The notes beneath the pieces were generated by a model. That model saw only the letters and a list, made by a program, of their open reading frames with translations. It searched no databases and was not told the DNA's origin. The position numbers were made by a program, and so were the translations under genes. 32,335 nucleotides of DNA, from positions 1-32,335 of the forward strand of contig JAUWAD010000012.1 in assembly GCA_030602225.1 (NCBI GenBank). The letters run 5' to 3'. This DNA is from Bacillota bacterium. Lineage in GTDB: Bacteria > Bacillota > Clostridia > Tissierellales > Tissierellaceae. Below, in pieces: positions 4,833-32,335 of this stretch (the first letter of the stretch is position 1; the number at the start of each line of letters is the position of its first letter).

Positions 4833-4867
4833 AAAAGAATAATTACAAATAATGAGGGGGTGTCATC

Positions 4868-5587
4868 TTGGCAGAGGTAAAACCTGGTTGTGATAGACCA
4901 GCAATTAAAAGAAACAAGCCAGTTGTTGAAGCAGCATCTGAAATTCTAGAAGTTAAAAAGGAGGAACACACTATGGTTAAAGTAGGAAAACCAGCACCAA
5001 CTTTTGAAGCGCCAGCATTTCATAAGGGCCAATTTGTAAATGTAAATCTTGAGGATTATAAAGGTAAGTGGGTATTATTATGCTTCTACCCTGGAGACTT
5101 TACTTTTGTCTGAGCTACTGAAGTTTCAGCAGTTGCTGAAAAGTATGAAGAATTGCAAGAACTTGGAGTAGAAGTTTTATCAATGAGTGTAGATAGCCAC
5201 TTTGTACACAAAATGTGGAATGATCATGAGTTGTCAAAGATGATAGGAAAAGATATCCCATTCCCAATGTTGTCAGATCAAGATGGATACATCGGAAAAA
5301 TGTATGGTATATATGATGAAGACAGTGGTGTTGAGACTAGGGGTAGATTTATAATAGATCCAGATGGAATAATTCAAGGATTTGAAGTACTTACTCCTCC
5401 TGTTGGAAGAAATGTATCTGAGAGTATTAGACAGGTTAAAGCTTTTCAATTAGTAAGGGAGTCCAAGGGAACCAAGGCGACTCCTTCAGGATGGAAACCC
5501 GGCAAGAAAGTTTTAGAGCCAAGCCCAGATTTAGTAGGTAGGGTTTGGGAAGTATGGAGTGTTAAAGAGGCTTTTGACCAAGAGTAA
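4868..5587 (+). CDS. prxU: Selenocysteine-containing peroxiredoxin
   Basis: An in-frame TGA at 5111-5113 splits an otherwise continuous 239-codon frame. It falls where peroxiredoxins carry the peroxidatic cysteine: [13 protein letters not shown] replaces the usual FTFVCPTE. The enzyme should reduce hydrogen peroxide and organic peroxides in the cytoplasm using an external thiol donor. The typical AhpC/TSA fold motifs follow ([30 protein letters not shown]), with a C-terminal SGWKPGKK segment. The only other cysteines are Cys8 and the one in LLCFYP, so there is no classic C-terminal resolving cysteine. Two starts are plausible: TTG at 4868 behind GAGGGGGTG, giving Sec82, and ATG at 4973 behind AAAGGAGG, giving a 204-residue protein with Sec47, the usual peroxiredoxin position. 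Confidence 0.93.
4957..4975 (+). promoter_or_regulatory. Internal ribosome site and second start of prxU
   Basis: AAAGGAGG at 4957-4964 lies eight bases before an in-frame ATG at 4973. This site is at least as good as that of the upstream TTG. Initiation here yields a normal-length peroxiredoxin without the 35-residue leader that carries Cys8. Either both forms are made, or the leader frame is regulatory. Confidence 0.6.
5111..5140 (+). promoter_or_regulatory. Sec UGA codon and bacterial SECIS-like hairpin in prxU
   Basis: The TGA at 5111-5113 is followed by a perfect six-pair stem, TTCAGC (5125-5130) with GCTGAA (5135-5140). The apical loop AGTT has a G as its second base, 18 bases after the UGA. 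Position, stem and loop G agree with the known bacterial SECIS pattern read by SelB. Confidence 0.75.
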
Positions 5588-21044: not shown

Positions 21045-21437
21045 TTAGTTCAATAGATACCAAAGGGCGCTGGGATAGAATAAGTGTAGCAGAAGTAGTA
21101 AAAAGGATATAAAAGCCATCCTTTTATGCCACTGAAACAACTGCCTTTTCTTTAACTTGTAAAAGCTTCCTCCCAAAATGGCTGTTATGAAAATAGACAG
21201 GTATAATAGACTTCCTGTGTGAAGTCTTAAACTACCTAAAGCCATATAGCCATGGACTAATGCCAGAACTGCCATTATTATACCAAAGGGTTTGTGCAGT
21301 CTCCTTAAAAATTTTACAAGATTTCTAAAACCACTACTTTTAGTTTTAATAATATGTCTGTTTAAAAAGTTAAGCACAAAGGGAGCTATAATCACTCCCA
21401 GTAAGATCACATTAAGCCATCCCAATATTTTATACAT
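21045..21437 (-). CDS. Four-helix membrane protein, possibly heme-binding
   Basis: The 130-residue protein has four predicted membrane segments. His residues lie at or near helix ends: LVHGYMAL, LRLHTGSLLY, WHKRMAFI and LLHLF. This spacing resembles small cytochrome b561 or ferric-reductase-like four-helix modules that hold heme b between helices. I do not recognise a named family with confidence. It follows the cytochrome b5-like lipoprotein gene by 21 bases on the same strand with its own GGGGGTG site, so the two are co-transcribed. A quinol-to-surface electron path is possible but inferred. Confidence 0.65.
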   Translation of the reverse strand: MYKILGWLNVILLGVIIAPFVLNFLNRHIIKTKSSGFRNLVKFLRRLHKPFGIIMAVLALVHGYMALGSLRLHTGSLLYLSIFITAILGGSFYKLKKRQLFQWHKRMAFISFLLLLLHLFYPSALWYLLN

Positions 21438-21458
21438 AAAACACCCCCGATAAATTAA

Positions 21459-21797
21459 TTAGTCTTCTATAAGTCTTCCTACAATAGGCATTCTTGAAAG
21501 TACTGATACACCATGAGGAGAAGCTCCTTTAATCTCTTCAGTTAAGTCTTGGCCAGCTTCGTATCCATTATGCTCACCTTGACCCCACATATTTGAGTCA
21601 GTAAAATCATAGATTACACCATCAACTGCTACATATGCCTTTCTGCCATCTTTACCATCAAATTCTGCTAATTCCTCAAGGGTTAGTTCCATTAATTCTT
21701 CTTCTGCAGGCTCTTCTGCGGGACTATCAGTTGAACAACCTACAAGAATAAGGGATGCAATTAATATTAACAGAACCATCTTCAGATATTTGTTCAT
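21459..21797 (-). CDS. Cytochrome b5-like heme-binding lipoprotein
   Basis: The 112-residue lipoprotein has lipobox LVGC (lipidated Cys about 21) and a Glu-rich linker. A compact cytochrome b5-type domain follows (about 37-112): LTLEELAEFDGKDGRKAYVA, VIYDFTDSNMW, GEHNGYEAGQDLT, then SPHGVSVLSRMPIVGRL. The two His residues in GEHNGY and SPHG are the likely heme ligands. The domain is exported and tethered to the outer membrane face. It is co-transcribed with a small multi-helix membrane protein that may pass it electrons. Proteins of this pattern occur in anaerobic Firmicutes, but their partners and redox role are not established as far as I know. Confidence 0.85.
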   Translation of the reverse strand: MNKYLKMVLLILIASLILVGCSTDSPAEEPAEEELMELTLEELAEFDGKDGRKAYVAVDGVIYDFTDSNMWGQGEHNGYEAGQDLTEEIKGASPHGVSVLSRMPIVGRLIED

Positions 21798-22075: not shown

Positions 22076-22702
22076 ATGAATTCACACGTTGTTTTTATAA
22101 GAGATCCAGATTTAGATATAAATAAAGTAAATGTAAGAAGGGCATCTCCAGGGGATGAGCATGGTATCTATAGGGTAGCTGTATCAGTTAGTGATAAGAA
22201 GAAGGATTCCTACCAGGGTTTTCTAATGGATGATTATGCAAGTGATCCTGATTATTACATAGATATGTTCAGGGATAGGATAGATAATCTTAAATACTTC
22301 TATGTAGCAGAACTAGATGGAAGGATAATTGGTTTCTCATTGGCATATAAGAAGGAAATGTGGTTATTATACCATGAAGAATGGCTTGATGATATCCATT
22401 GGCATCCATCCTTTGACATGGAGATATTGGATGACTTTGTTATGATAGATAAAACTGCCATAGAGGCAGAGCATACAGGAGAAGGTATCGGTAGTCTTTT
22501 GTATAAAAGCATAATTTCTGATATGAGAGAAAATAATATCCATTATATATTATCAGAGACAATAGTAAACCCCATACCGAATTTTGCATCCTTAGCTTTT
22601 AGACAAAAGCAGGATTACATACTGGCTGGGGTTAGATTTGAAGAATACAAAGGTGATATATTTACCGATCTTATTTATTACAAGAGAATACAATTATCTT
22701 AA
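22076..22702 (+). CDS. GNAT family N-acetyltransferase
   Basis: The 208-residue protein has the GNAT layout: an N-terminal strand with VRRASPGDEHGIYRVAV (about 19-35), FYVAELDGRIIGFSLAYKK (about 76-95), and the acetyl-CoA pyrophosphate loop region AEHTGEGIGSLLYKSII (about 141-157), where the usual Q/RxxGxG/A appears as EHTGEGIG. A later FASLAFRQKQDYILAG block matches motif B. The acceptor substrate is not evident. It has its own GGGAGG site after a gap of about 280 bases from the divergent b5-like gene. Its last nine bases overlap the end of the convergent Sec glutaredoxin-like gene. Confidence 0.82.
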   Translation: MNSHVVFIRDPDLDINKVNVRRASPGDEHGIYRVAVSVSDKKKDSYQGFLMDDYASDPDYYIDMFRDRIDNLKYFYVAELDGRIIGFSLAYKKEMWLLYHEEWLDDIHWHPSFDMEILDDFVMIDKTAIEAEHTGEGIGSLLYKSIISDMRENNIHYILSETIVNPIPNFASLAFRQKQDYILAGVRFEEYKGDIFTDLIYYKRIQLS

Positions 22703-22963
22703 TTCATCAAGGTCAAGATCTGTACTTCCAACAAGGAACTTTTCACCATTACCAATCATAATTGTGGGTATGCCAACGCTGCCCCTTTTTTTTATGGGGT
22801 CAAAATAAGGATCCTTATCTCTAAAGGCTAGAAATATCTTCAGACTTCTCATGCTATCGGTTATATCAATATAGTCAAATTCTACTTTATTTTCTAAGAG
22901 ATACTCTCTCACTGGTTTACACTCTGCTCAAAGAGGACTCCCAAATACGGTTATTTTTTTCAT
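22694..22963 (-). CDS. Selenocysteine-containing glutaredoxin-like protein
   Basis: The frame runs from an ATG at 22963 through a TGA at 22930-22928 to the stop at 22694, giving 89 residues. The UGA is codon 12, in GSPL-U-AEC-KP, exactly where glutaredoxins and NrdH-like proteins carry the first Cys of CxxC; this gives a U-x-x-C redox site. A thioredoxin-fold C-terminal part with GSVGIPTIMIGNGEKF (the cis-Pro loop, about 62-77) supports the fold. An AGGAG ribosome site precedes the ATG, and a separate promoter lies upstream. It is probably a cytoplasmic thiol/selenol reductase and a plausible reductant for the Sec peroxiredoxin. Automated gene callers would miss the first 17 residues. Confidence 0.9.
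22895..22930 (-). promoter_or_regulatory. Sec UGA and bacterial SECIS-like hairpin in the glutaredoxin-like gene
   Basis: After the UGA (22930-22928) the RNA can form TGAGAGA-GTA-TCTCTTA (22911-22895), seven pairs with one G-U. The loop G lies 23 bases past the UGA. This fits the accepted bacterial SECIS spacing and the need for a G at the apical loop. Confidence 0.65.
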
Positions 22964-22994
22964 AATATCAACTCCTAGTATAGGTTATTGTATG

Positions 22995-23030: not shown

Positions 23031-23059
23031 AAACAGGATGTTCTTAAAACATCCTGTTT
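23031..23059 (-). terminator. Terminator of the AOR-MoaD operon
   Basis: Twelve-pair stem, AAACAGGATGTT (23031-23042) with AACATCCTGTTT (23048-23059). On the minus strand TTGATTGTTG follows. It begins at the stop codon of the MoaD-like gene. Confidence 0.7.
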
Positions 23060-23345
23060 AACCGCCACCTACAGGTGGAAATATCAAAACTACATCTTTA
23101 TCCTTTAATATAGTGTCCAATCCAGATGTGGCAAATATATTACTACCATTGACAAAGATTGCTATTCTGTTTTTTGTTGAATTAGAGTCCTTCAAAATGA
23201 CATCTTTTATTCCACTGTCATATATTGAATCCATGAGAATAATTAAATCGTAAACACTTATCTCTTCTTCCACATCTAGTGAAATCGAAGTTTTGCCACC
23301 AAAGAGTTCCTTAAAGAAATACAAAGTTTGTACATTTACTTTCAT
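23058..23345 (-). CDS. MoaD/ThiS-like small protein of the AOR operon
   Basis: This 95-residue protein has the beta-grasp pattern of MoaD (VNVQTLYFFKELFGG near the start, IAIFVNGSNI mid-protein) and ends in PPVGGG. The C-terminal Gly-Gly is needed for adenylation and sulfur loading in pterin-dithiolene synthesis. Only two bases separate it from the aldehyde oxidoreductase gene upstream in the transcript. It probably supplies sulfur for tungstopterin of that enzyme. No MoaE or MoeB lies nearby, so the partners must be elsewhere. Confidence 0.87.
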   Translation of the reverse strand: MKVNVQTLYFFKELFGGKTSISLDVEEEISVYDLIILMDSIYDSGIKDVILKDSNSTKNRIAIFVNGSNIFATSGLDTILKDKDVVLIFPPVGGG

Positions 23346-23347
23346 TA

Positions 23348-25198
23348 CTAAACCAAACCTAATTCCATTAGTTTTTCCTTTGTTGGAATACCACTTAAAT
23401 TCCAGCCTCTTTCAGTATAGTAATCATCTAGCATTTTGTCCAAATCTTCCTTTGGAATATAATGACCTTTTGATCCCCCATCCCTTAAAGGTTCATTCAT
23501 GATTCTATAAGGCATTGAATCATCATCCCTTGTCAATCCTGTGGATATATTAAACAATCTGGCTAAGTTGTTTACCCTTTCTCCTACCACCATAACATCA
23601 TCTGCATCATAGCTTACTCCTGTCAATGCTGTTAATAAATCAGCTGTATTTTGTAGCGCAATGGATGGAAGCGCCAAATCTAATAGAAACGCACACATAG
23701 TTGGGCAATCACATGTTGCTGTTCTAACATCTTGGTTCCATTTTGTTAGTTTGCCCTTACCTTCAAGTTGGAACCTATCATAGGCAGCTGGTATGGGAAT
23801 AGCAAAAATTTCCTGGAATGCATAACCCCTATTGTGATCTGCACCTGTGTAGCTGGTAGCATAGTTTAAACCATGAGCTTTAGCTCCTCTTGGATCATAT
23901 GCTGGCAGTTCAAGACCTTTGATATGCATTGCATACTTATAAGCATCCCTTCCTATTTTCTCTGAGAGTACTTTAGTTCCATCACAAAGCAACTTTCCTA
24001 TACCCTCTCTTCTATAAGCCATTTCGATAAGTGCATCATACATAGCTTCATGGTTTCCAAATCTAAAATCTAGACCTCCAACATCATCATTAGTCAGTAT
24101 ACCTTTTTCGTAAAGTTCCATTGCAAAAGCTATTGTTACACCAGCGGACATTGTATCTAATCCAAGCCGATCACAAAGATTATCTGCTGCAATAATGGCA
24201 TCATGCTCTGTCACCCCAGTAACACCACCAAAGCTGTAATAGGTTTCATACTCTGGATCTGATAAAGCACCAACATATTTTGAACTTCCTCTTGCCAACT
24301 TAATGGTTGAGCAAGAAACAGGACAACCATAGCATGGTTCGCTTCCAACTATTGACTGGGCACTTGCTTCAGCACCTATTGATTCAACGTAACTTTTTTC
24401 GCCTGTTGTACTGAAGTTTTCAGAGGGGAATATACCTAATGCACTAATTGCATCCACTATCATGGGAGTACCCATTTTAGAAAAATGTGAATATAGCAAT
24501 GGGCTTTCTTTCATGGCTCCCAGCATCCTGGTCCTTGCCTTCTTGAACTCTTCTTCATCTGCTATTTCAACGGTTTTTGTTCCTCTAACTGCTATTGCTT
24601 TTAAATTCTTGGAACCCATTATTGCACCTGTTCCCTTTCTTCCAAAAGCTCTACGTTCGTTAATTATGCAGGCTAACCTTGATAGGTTCTCACCAGCTGG
24701 TCCAATGCAAGCTACTCTTATGTTTTGATTATTCAAGGAATGCTTAATATAGTTTTGAGTATCAAATGTTTCCATTCCCCATATACCATCAGCTTTCTTA
24801 ATTTTAACTTCATCATCGTTTATGTAAATATATACTGGACTTTCAGACTTTCCTTCGATTATCAATGCATCGTAGCCTGCAAATTTAAGCTCCACGGGGA
24901 AATGGCCTCCAGATGATGACATACCCACTGCACCAGTCAGTGGAGACTTTGTTACAACTGACATCCGACTGGCACAGGGGGTACTGGTGCCTGTCAATGG
25001 CCCGTTGACGAATATTAGTTTATTATCTTCTGAAAAAGGATCTATGTCACCAGGAACTTCCTTAACAAGGTAATTAATACCAATTCCTGCACCACCAACA
25101 AAATCCTTTGCTATCTTGGGATCTAAAGATTCTTTTTTTATGTCACCAGTTGTGAGATTTACTCTTAGAACCAATCCCATATAACCACCTTTGTACAT
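23348..25198 (-). CDS. aor: Aldehyde:ferredoxin oxidoreductase, tungsten type
   Basis: The 616-residue length is normal for AOR. The N-terminal domain opens with LVLRVNLTTGDIK and contains GPLTGTSTPCASRMSVVTKSP and SSSGGHFPVELKFAGYDALI blocks that bind the bis-pterin. The [4Fe-4S] ligands form CYGCPVSC (about 292-299), with the later fourth ligand in DCPTMC (about 515). AOR oxidises aldehydes to acids, or the reverse, with ferredoxin. A downstream MoaD-like gene fits cofactor supply. The ATG at 25198, with AAGGGGTGG upstream, gives the family-like start; an ATG six codons later also has a ribosome site. Possible substrates include aldehydes from amino-acid fermentation and from the aldolase encoded nearby. 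Confidence 0.93.
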   Translation of the reverse strand: MYKGGYMGLVLRVNLTTGDIKKESLDPKIAKDFVGGAGIGINYLVKEVPGDIDPFSEDNKLIFVNGPLTGTSTPCASRMSVVTKSPLTGAVGMSSSGGHFPVELKFAGYDALIIEGKSESPVYIYINDDEVKIKKADGIWGMETFDTQNYIKHSLNNQNIRVACIGPAGENLSRLACIINERRAFGRKGTGAIMGSKNLKAIAVRGTKTVEIADEEEFKKARTRMLGAMKESPLLYSHFSKMGTPMIVDAISALGIFPSENFSTTGEKSYVESIGAEASAQSIVGSEPCYGCPVSCSTIKLARGSSKYVGALSDPEYETYYSFGGVTGVTEHDAIIAADNLCDRLGLDTMSAGVTIAFAMELYEKGILTNDDVGGLDFRFGNHEAMYDALIEMAYRREGIGKLLCDGTKVLSEKIGRDAYKYAMHIKGLELPAYDPRGAKAHGLNYATSYTGADHNRGYAFQEIFAIPIPAAYDRFQLEGKGKLTKWNQDVRTATCDCPTMCAFLLDLALPSIALQNTADLLTALTGVSYDADDVMVVGERVNNLARLFNISTGLTRDDDSMPYRIMNEPLRDGGSKGHYIPKEDLDKMLDDYYTERGWNLSGIPTKEKLMELGLV

Positions 25199-31003: not shown

Positions 31004-32335
31004 ATGTCAAAACCGAAAATACTGGATAAATGGGTAGCTAGTCTGGCTGTGGTTGCTGTAATAGGTGTTGCAGCTCTTGGGATATATCATTTTGGTATAA
31101 AACCAGGATTGCCAGAAGAGACATATGCACCCATAAATGGAGGAGAAGATACACCATTTGCATTTGACTCCATTGATAGTTCTAGTTGTGTTGCCTGCCA
31201 TACAAGTGAATCAGTTATAGCAGCTTCAACATGGGGTCAGGATAAACCTGTTGCAGAAAACACAGGTGGTTGAGGGGCTCCGGGGCCACAGCTGGAAGCT
31301 GTACAAATGTTTTTAGTATCTGAAGAGTTTGTAGCATCAACACATGGTAGTCTTGGATGTATAACTTGTCACGGTGGAGAAAATTCATTTGATAAGGCAA
31401 TTGCCCATAGTGAAATGGATCCTTATCCATCAAGAAACTTCCAAGCTAACTGCGGTACCTGCCACGCCAATGTAGCAGGAGTATATGAAACATCTATACA
31501 TTACAATCTACATGGTATGGCAAATGGGTTGTTAGAGTTTACAGATTATACTCAACTATCTGATTCGCCTCATCATGAAGAAGTATTTGACAATGACTGC
31601 TTTAAGTGTCACGCCACTTGTGGTGATTGCCACGTAAGTAGACCAAAGAATTTCTCCAATGGTCTTGTTGACCAACATACATTCTTAGGAACTCCATCAA
31701 TGGAGGAAAACTGCTATGCATGCCATAACGCAAGAAATGCAGGGGAATTTATGGGTCTTGTTGGATTTGGAGGAGATGTTCACTACGAAAAGGGAATGAC
31801 ATGTATGGACTGTCACCCAACAAGTAATTTCCATGGCACAGGGGAAGTGGGATATAATATGTGGGATGAGGATCTTCCAAGCTGTATAGACTGTCATGCT
31901 GACAAAGAGCCAAGTGTTGCCACAGATGTAAACCACAGAGTTCATGGAGATGCACTATCTTGTCAGGTATGCCATGCTCAAGCTAACAACAATTGCTTTG
32001 AATGTCACCTTGATGAGAAAGCAGATGGAAGTGGTCTTGCTAGTTCTTCAGAAATGAAGATAATGTTTAGAGTTGGATACAATCCTAATCCTACAGAAGA
32101 AAGGCCATATAAGTACGTAGCATTAAGACATGTACCAGGACAGGCGAGTATGCTGGAAGTAGTTGGCGAGAATATGATGCCCAACTATGATGAAAAGACA
32201 AATTGGAAGTATTCACCTACACATAATATACAAAAGAGTACATTCCAGAACGAAAGTTGCGCTTCATGTCATGACAATACAAGAATTTGGTTGAAGATGG
32301 ATGACTTAAGAGAAACAGATAGTAAGGCAAATGAA
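31004..32335 (+). CDS. Multiheme cytochrome c with in-frame UGA (putative Sec), partial at the window end
   Basis: The frame is open for 444 codons from the ATG at 31004 (AGGAGGTG site seven bases upstream) to the last base, interrupted only by TGA at codon 90 (31271-31273). An N-terminal membrane anchor (about 9-30) exports the protein. Eleven CxxCH motifs are seen: CVACH (62) before the UGA, and CITCH (119), CGTCH, CFKCH, CGDCH, CYACH, CMDCH, CIDCH, CQVCH, CFECH and CASCH after it. The fourth and fifth nearly touch (CFKCHATCGDCH). The UGA lies in NTGG-U-GAPGPQ between hemes 1 and 2. A SECIS-like hairpin follows it. The protein probably moves electrons at the cell surface. A nonsense mutation is the alternative, but 354 intact downstream codons argue against decay. 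Confidence 0.85.
31271..31302 (+). promoter_or_regulatory. UGA and bacterial SECIS-like hairpin in the multiheme cytochrome gene
   Basis: After the TGA at 31271-31273, ACAGC (31288-31292) pairs with GCTGT (31298-31302) around the loop TGGAA, whose second base is G. The loop starts 19 bases past the UGA. This matches the geometry of the hairpin found in prxU and the accepted bacterial SECIS rule. Confidence 0.65.

Follow-up and report, generated by a model that had tools for sequence, protein, structure and literature searches.

A predicted selenocysteine-containing eleven-heme cytochrome c encoded beside a secreted rhodanese in Bacillota

Multiheme c-type cytochromes with selenocysteine (Sec) are a described kind of protein, contrary to the earlier note on the DNA analyzed here, which knew of none. 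ExtKL of Geobacter and its relatives was found in silico in 2007 (PMC1914089) and has been tied to selenite reduction (PMC5877670). It is a multiheme c-type cytochrome with a predicted Sec and a rhodanese in its gene cluster; five hemes lie in its N-terminal part and the Sec lies outside that cytochrome domain (PMC1914089, PMC5877670). A Sec version, with a GenBank member, has also been listed for octaheme tetrathionate reductase, one of the multiheme enzymes that reduce sulfur or nitrogen compounds outside the cytoplasm (PMC13188914). A solved structure exists for MccSep, a ‘multiheme cytochrome c selenoprotein’ with Sec at U325 and a U325A mutant entry (PDB 9wt9, 9wtc). MccSep is perhaps of the ExtKL type, and a literature search on MccSep and on cytochromes that contain Sec or are ligated by it brought up no relevant work. 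In Methanosarcina, Rnf feeds MmcA, an extracytoplasmic cytochrome with seven hemes whose gene lies together with rnf genes. MmcA is OTR-related; its description as cited here mentions neither Sec nor rhodanese, and has MmcA missing from bacteria in which Rnf works between ferredoxin and NAD (PMC11024163).

The window, a stretch of 32,335 nucleotides that forms one entire contig of a 2.08-Mb Bacillota genome in 138 contigs, ends in a gene that joins several of these ingredients. The relevant features are the following.

21045-21437 (-): small membrane protein, weakly ferric-reductase-transmembrane-like (PF01794, 1.6e-4, below the curated cut-off); synteny with L008 and L064
21459-21797 (-): cytochrome b5-like heme lipoprotein (PF00173, 8.6e-07); synteny with L008 and L064
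28302-29870 (+): FMN glutamate-synthase-domain protein (PF01645, 3e-11); an upstream neighbor also in Gudongella L008
30004-30963 (+): secreted lipoprotein with two rhodanese domains (PF00581, 1.8e-29), 40 nt upstream of the cytochrome gene
31004-32335 (+): predicted Sec-containing undecaheme c-type cytochrome, residues 1-444 of 456
31271-31273 (+): TGA codon predicted to be read as Sec, NTGG-U-GAPGPQ; same column TGA in 21 genomes, tRNA-Sec and SelB in the genome
31288-31302 (+): SECIS-like hairpin, ACAGCU-GGA-AGCUGU; present in 20 of 21 homologs, better than synonymous recoding, with compensatory changes

The cytochrome gene is a single open frame interrupted once, by the TGA at residue 90. 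It starts with the ATG at 31004, with AGGAGG at about 30990, and encodes an N-terminal membrane anchor at roughly residues 5-30; some family members have a lipobox. The contig end interrupts the gene, and the remaining 12 codons and stop are located on contig C45, whose first 141 bases match the last 141 of the window exactly, giving a full product of 456 residues. One CxxCH motif lies upstream of the TGA and ten lie downstream, which agrees with the earlier count of at least 11 on both sides of a single TGA. The protein matches PF14522 above its cut-off. Its 11 CxxCH motifs, its N-terminal anchor and the ResB and CcsB genes downstream identify it as a multiheme c-type cytochrome. The earlier note was silent on the rhodanese neighbor, on these cytochrome-maturation genes and on the continuation past the contig end.

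Sec lies between hemes 1 and 2 of 11 in the window cytochrome, unlike the arrangement in ExtKL, and the ExtKL model (NF040886, cut-off 250 bits) has no match in the entire genome at E 0.001. Octaheme tetrathionate reductase differs in having eight hemes, and its model (TIGR04315) matched none of the ten members tested at E 0.01. In MccSep, Sec is residue 325 of a 450-residue chain, as opposed to 90 of 456 here; a profile search gave only a 23-residue match to MccSep (E 0.093) and a fold search gave nothing. The best curated family match is ExtM (NF040943), a 12-heme protein of the ext cluster that is not among the selenoproteins of a 2026 table. The score of 41 bits is far under the 800-bit cut-off and speaks against membership, although ExtM is a plausible distant relative. 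The family is absent from that table, which covers 119 prokaryotic selenoprotein families, and from NCBIfam. It thus appears to be a new family within a known kind, the Sec multiheme cytochromes, and to differ by model from ExtKL and octaheme tetrathionate reductase; it could already be described in literature beyond that searched. If expressed, it would add a selenoprotein family spread over many families of Bacillota. Automatic annotation can be expected to break the gene in two or cut it short at the TGA, so that protein and trait alike would escape notice.

Homologs were drawn from relatives, from a species-wide genome collection and from a profile search of 398 Bacillota genomes. The Gly/Pro-rich loop, flanked by hemes 1 and 2, was found in 22 distinct genomes, 21 of which have TGA at the identical column, while one has Ser (TCA). 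Selenocysteine is supported because this column holds TGA in 21 genomes against a single Ser and no other residue; the homolog alignment proposed together with the Sec reading of the TGA at 31271 thus came out in its favor. The TGA form occurs in 12 of the 398 Bacillota genomes (~3% of this broad sample) and in many families, the nearest named relatives being Gudongella and other Tissierellia. Anoxynatronum buryatiense, which is in culture, is among the carriers of the gene (L012). The column is kept down to ~33% identity to the window protein, and the surrounding loop varies from GGUGVPGPQL to EGUAGPPPP around a constant U. Wherever dS could be estimated, dN/dS was ~0.01-0.2 on both sides of the TGA, which indicates purifying selection. 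No Cys version was found among the homologs searched, all of them from Bacillota, in keeping with the earlier remark that this Sec is not a Cys replacement within a heme motif; Cys homologs outside Bacillota are conceivable.

The only relative with Ser (L077) comes from a metagenome-assembled genome (G639) that is 72% complete. Because its SECIS-like hairpin is intact and SelB is encoded in its genome, the Ser is likely a recent change, with loss of Sec, or a read error. The rhodanese is kept there as well.

The arms of the window hairpin (31288-31293 and 31297-31302) begin 14 nt past the TGA, so the structure earlier placed at the right distance is real. Its significance was assessed against synonymous recoding using the codon usage of each gene. 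The window hairpin alone is weakly significant (p 0.09), and a hairpin of ~5-8 pairs starting ~8-14 nt after the TGA occurs in 20 of 21 homologs, the exception being L072. Over the 21 homologs the combined Fisher p is 5e-10, an optimistic value since the sequences are related. The hairpin register shifts by 3 nt between lineages, so that a single consensus alignment fails and two groups were counted apart. Both contain compensatory changes; the events are few and the alignments small. At pair 17-25, L067 and L068 have G-C where L014 and L069 have U-A, a swap that alters one residue (Ala/Glu) and, silently, the wobble base of a Pro codon. Pair 21-27 alternates between C-G and U-A within the Gudongella group. 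The folding energy of the whole 45 nt did not differ significantly from synonymous recoding (mean z -0.57), and Rfam gave no family match at the hairpin and no SECIS match. The genome carries the Sec machinery: selD, selA, selB and tRNA-Sec are clustered on contig C54, selA and selD being recognized by inspection of the frames beside selB, and selD itself has an in-frame TGA. SelB was found in all genomes tested. Together, these sequence data predict a genuine selenoprotein, with Sec almost certainly inserted at residue 90.

The Sec loop behaves as a feature of one clade. The heme pattern is kept in four homologs at greater distance (L078, L079, L052 and L053), which miss the entire Gly/Pro loop and lack Sec. 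In a maximum-likelihood tree, the predicted Sec proteins and the Ser protein cluster together (support 90/83) and the Sec-less four fall outside; confidence in this grouping is moderate, several branches being long. Structure prediction reached a pLDDT of 46 with 18 sequences and a mean pLDDT of 64 with 26, the Sec loop staying below 50. Because of this modest quality, Sec-heme distances cannot be read from the model, and Foldseek and VIA-align searches with it yielded nothing usable.

A rhodanese gene adjoins 18 of the 20 testable Sec-cytochrome genes and none of the four Sec-less homologs. Testable loci are those with enough flank; L009 was left out, as its contig starts too close. In the window, both rhodanese domains contain a catalytic Cys loop (CYSGQTS and CYTGQTA), and the lipobox LTAC indicates export. 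The rhodanese gene precedes that of the cytochrome in the lineages closest to the window and follows it in the others. The Sec cytochrome probably works together with the rhodanese. Two Sec loci have no rhodanese nearby (L014 and L015), and in L074-L076 the Cys is kept in one of the two rhodanese domains only; both facts count against the functional reading favored below.

Other neighbors bear on maturation and electron input. ResB and CcsB, which attach heme to c-type cytochromes, are encoded immediately downstream in the nearest lineages. No other multi-CxxCH cytochrome gene was found in the window’s genome by pattern or profile, and for this reason the pair may serve the Sec cytochrome alone. 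In one genus only (L010 and L011), rnfC, D, G and E follow straight after the rhodanese, cytochrome, ResB and CcsB genes, possibly an Rnf-fed multiheme cytochrome in bacteria; this arrangement resembles that of MmcA. An FeS protein and a cytochrome b561 adjoin the module in L069. In L072 its neighbors are a cytochrome b561, a cytochrome with six hemes and a YeeE-type Sulf_transp protein split into a pair. In L071, the cytochrome has NrfC/NrfD-like genes nearby, together with a molybdoenzyme that is matched best by the model for thiosulfate reductase PhsA, though below its cut-off. Within the window, the FMN glutamate-synthase-domain protein is possibly associated with the cytochrome. The b5-like lipoprotein and the ferric-reductase-like membrane protein are possible electron partners; in two further genomes of Gudongella (L008 and L064), this pair (21045-21797, -) is also found close to the Sec-cytochrome operon.

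The best explanation, to which we give a probability of roughly 55%, is that of a membrane-anchored, extracytoplasmic 11-heme Sec reductase paired with the secreted rhodanese. The substrate, with similar confidence, would be a sulfane-sulfur or other chalcogen compound; the cytochrome most likely reduces sulfur or selenium compounds. The Sec codon, the hairpin, the Sec machinery, the clade-specific loop, the heme count and the exported rhodanese are sequence-based, and it is from these that we infer a transfer followed by a reduction. The retention of Sec with no Cys version found suggests chemistry beyond the reach of Cys, and the rhodanese pairing points to sulfur or selenium being passed to a selenol that is connected to a chain of hemes. 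In such a mechanism, the rhodanese would draw sulfane sulfur from thiosulfate, polysulfide or a similar compound and carry it as persulfide on its Cys, or would take up selenium derived from selenite. Sulfur would be handed to the Sec selenolate, giving Se-S(H). Electrons supplied by Rnf in some lineages and by a b-type cytochrome in others would pass along the heme chain and reduce the Sec-bound chalcogen, with release of sulfide or of elemental selenium or selenide. Related bacteria of the genus Soehngenia, which may or may not carry the gene, form H2S from sulfur and thiosulfate (PMC7763609). The Geobacter ext cluster offers a precedent for a rhodanese with a Sec cytochrome, tied to selenite and tellurite reduction (PMC5877670). 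Sulfur genes adjoin just two of the 21 loci, which counts against this explanation.

A closer parallel to that cluster would make the protein an Ext-type selenite or tellurite reductase, with a selenium or tellurium oxyanion as main substrate, the rhodanese handling the reduced chalcogen and Sec acting as catalytic selenol. The ingredients are the same: rhodanese ExtH, Sec cytochrome ExtKL, cytochromes ExtM/ExtN, FeS protein ExtO and cytochrome b ExtP. When ExtI is lost, the reduction of selenite and tellurite is impaired (PMC5877670). The ExtM, ExtN and ExtO models match most members weakly. However, no Ext model reaches its cut-off, the window’s genome lacks an ExtKL homolog, and the genes adjoining two loci are sulfur rather than selenium genes, so that this narrower assignment is tentative and rather unlikely.

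A different role for Sec would be that of an axial ligand that tunes or opens one heme, the heme rather than the selenol being the catalytic site. The histidine count lends itself to this: there are 11 CxxCH motifs against nine further invariant His in an 18-member alignment, and L048 and L049 have nine other His in total. At least two of their hemes are therefore not bis-His, and one His-poor heme may be an open catalytic heme or be bound by Sec. In the Sec-less homologs, however, hemes likewise outnumber the conserved further His, and a His-poor heme therefore does not need Sec. A flexible Gly/Pro loop and the rhodanese tie fit a reactive selenol better, and the predicted structure is too weak to place Sec relative to any heme; a purely ligating Sec is unlikely. 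A combined form, in which Sec 90 is the axial selenolate of one of the two or more hemes without distal His and the rhodanese delivers sulfane sulfur or selenium to it there, would bring transfer and multi-electron reduction together and is a more speculative idea still. A natural bond between selenium and heme would, to our knowledge, be without precedent.

The cytochrome might instead be an outward electron conduit that serves to reduce metals or humic substances or to transfer electrons directly, with Sec protective or metal-binding. It is multiheme, membrane-anchored and outside the cell, with a lipobox in some members and Rnf adjacent in one genus, yet a conduit leaves the nearly constant rhodanese and the absence of any change from Sec to Cys unexplained, and this role is doubtful.

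That the TGA is a genuine stop codon, an error of sequencing or the mark of a pseudogene, as the TCA of L077 might hint, is scarcely credible in view of its presence in each of 21 separate assemblies, which represent many families, the purifying selection on either side, the hairpin conserved with compensation, and the source of L077 itself, an incomplete genome with hairpin and SelB kept. Translation restart at Met102 was rejected: this Met is not conserved and the product would be without the membrane anchor.

The preferred reading, a Sec reductase paired with a rhodanese, concerns a genome in which UGA appears to be read as Sec in other genes as well. Two such genes had been noted in the window, and inspection bears them out. 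An AhpC-like peroxiredoxin frame (4853-5587) with TGA at 5111, ...PGDFTFV-U-ATEV, is a Sec peroxiredoxin of a known kind. A small glutaredoxin-like U-x-x-C frame at 22697-22984 (-), MKKITVFGSPL-U-AECKP, resembles the UXX-star selenoproteins and, because of its TGA, is missed by an ordinary ORF caller. Nearby, 23058-25198 (-) looks like a tungsten aldehyde ferredoxin oxidoreductase; a MoaD/ThiS-like protein ending in ...PPVGGG lies beside it, and it is flanked by genes that are neighbors in related Gudongella.
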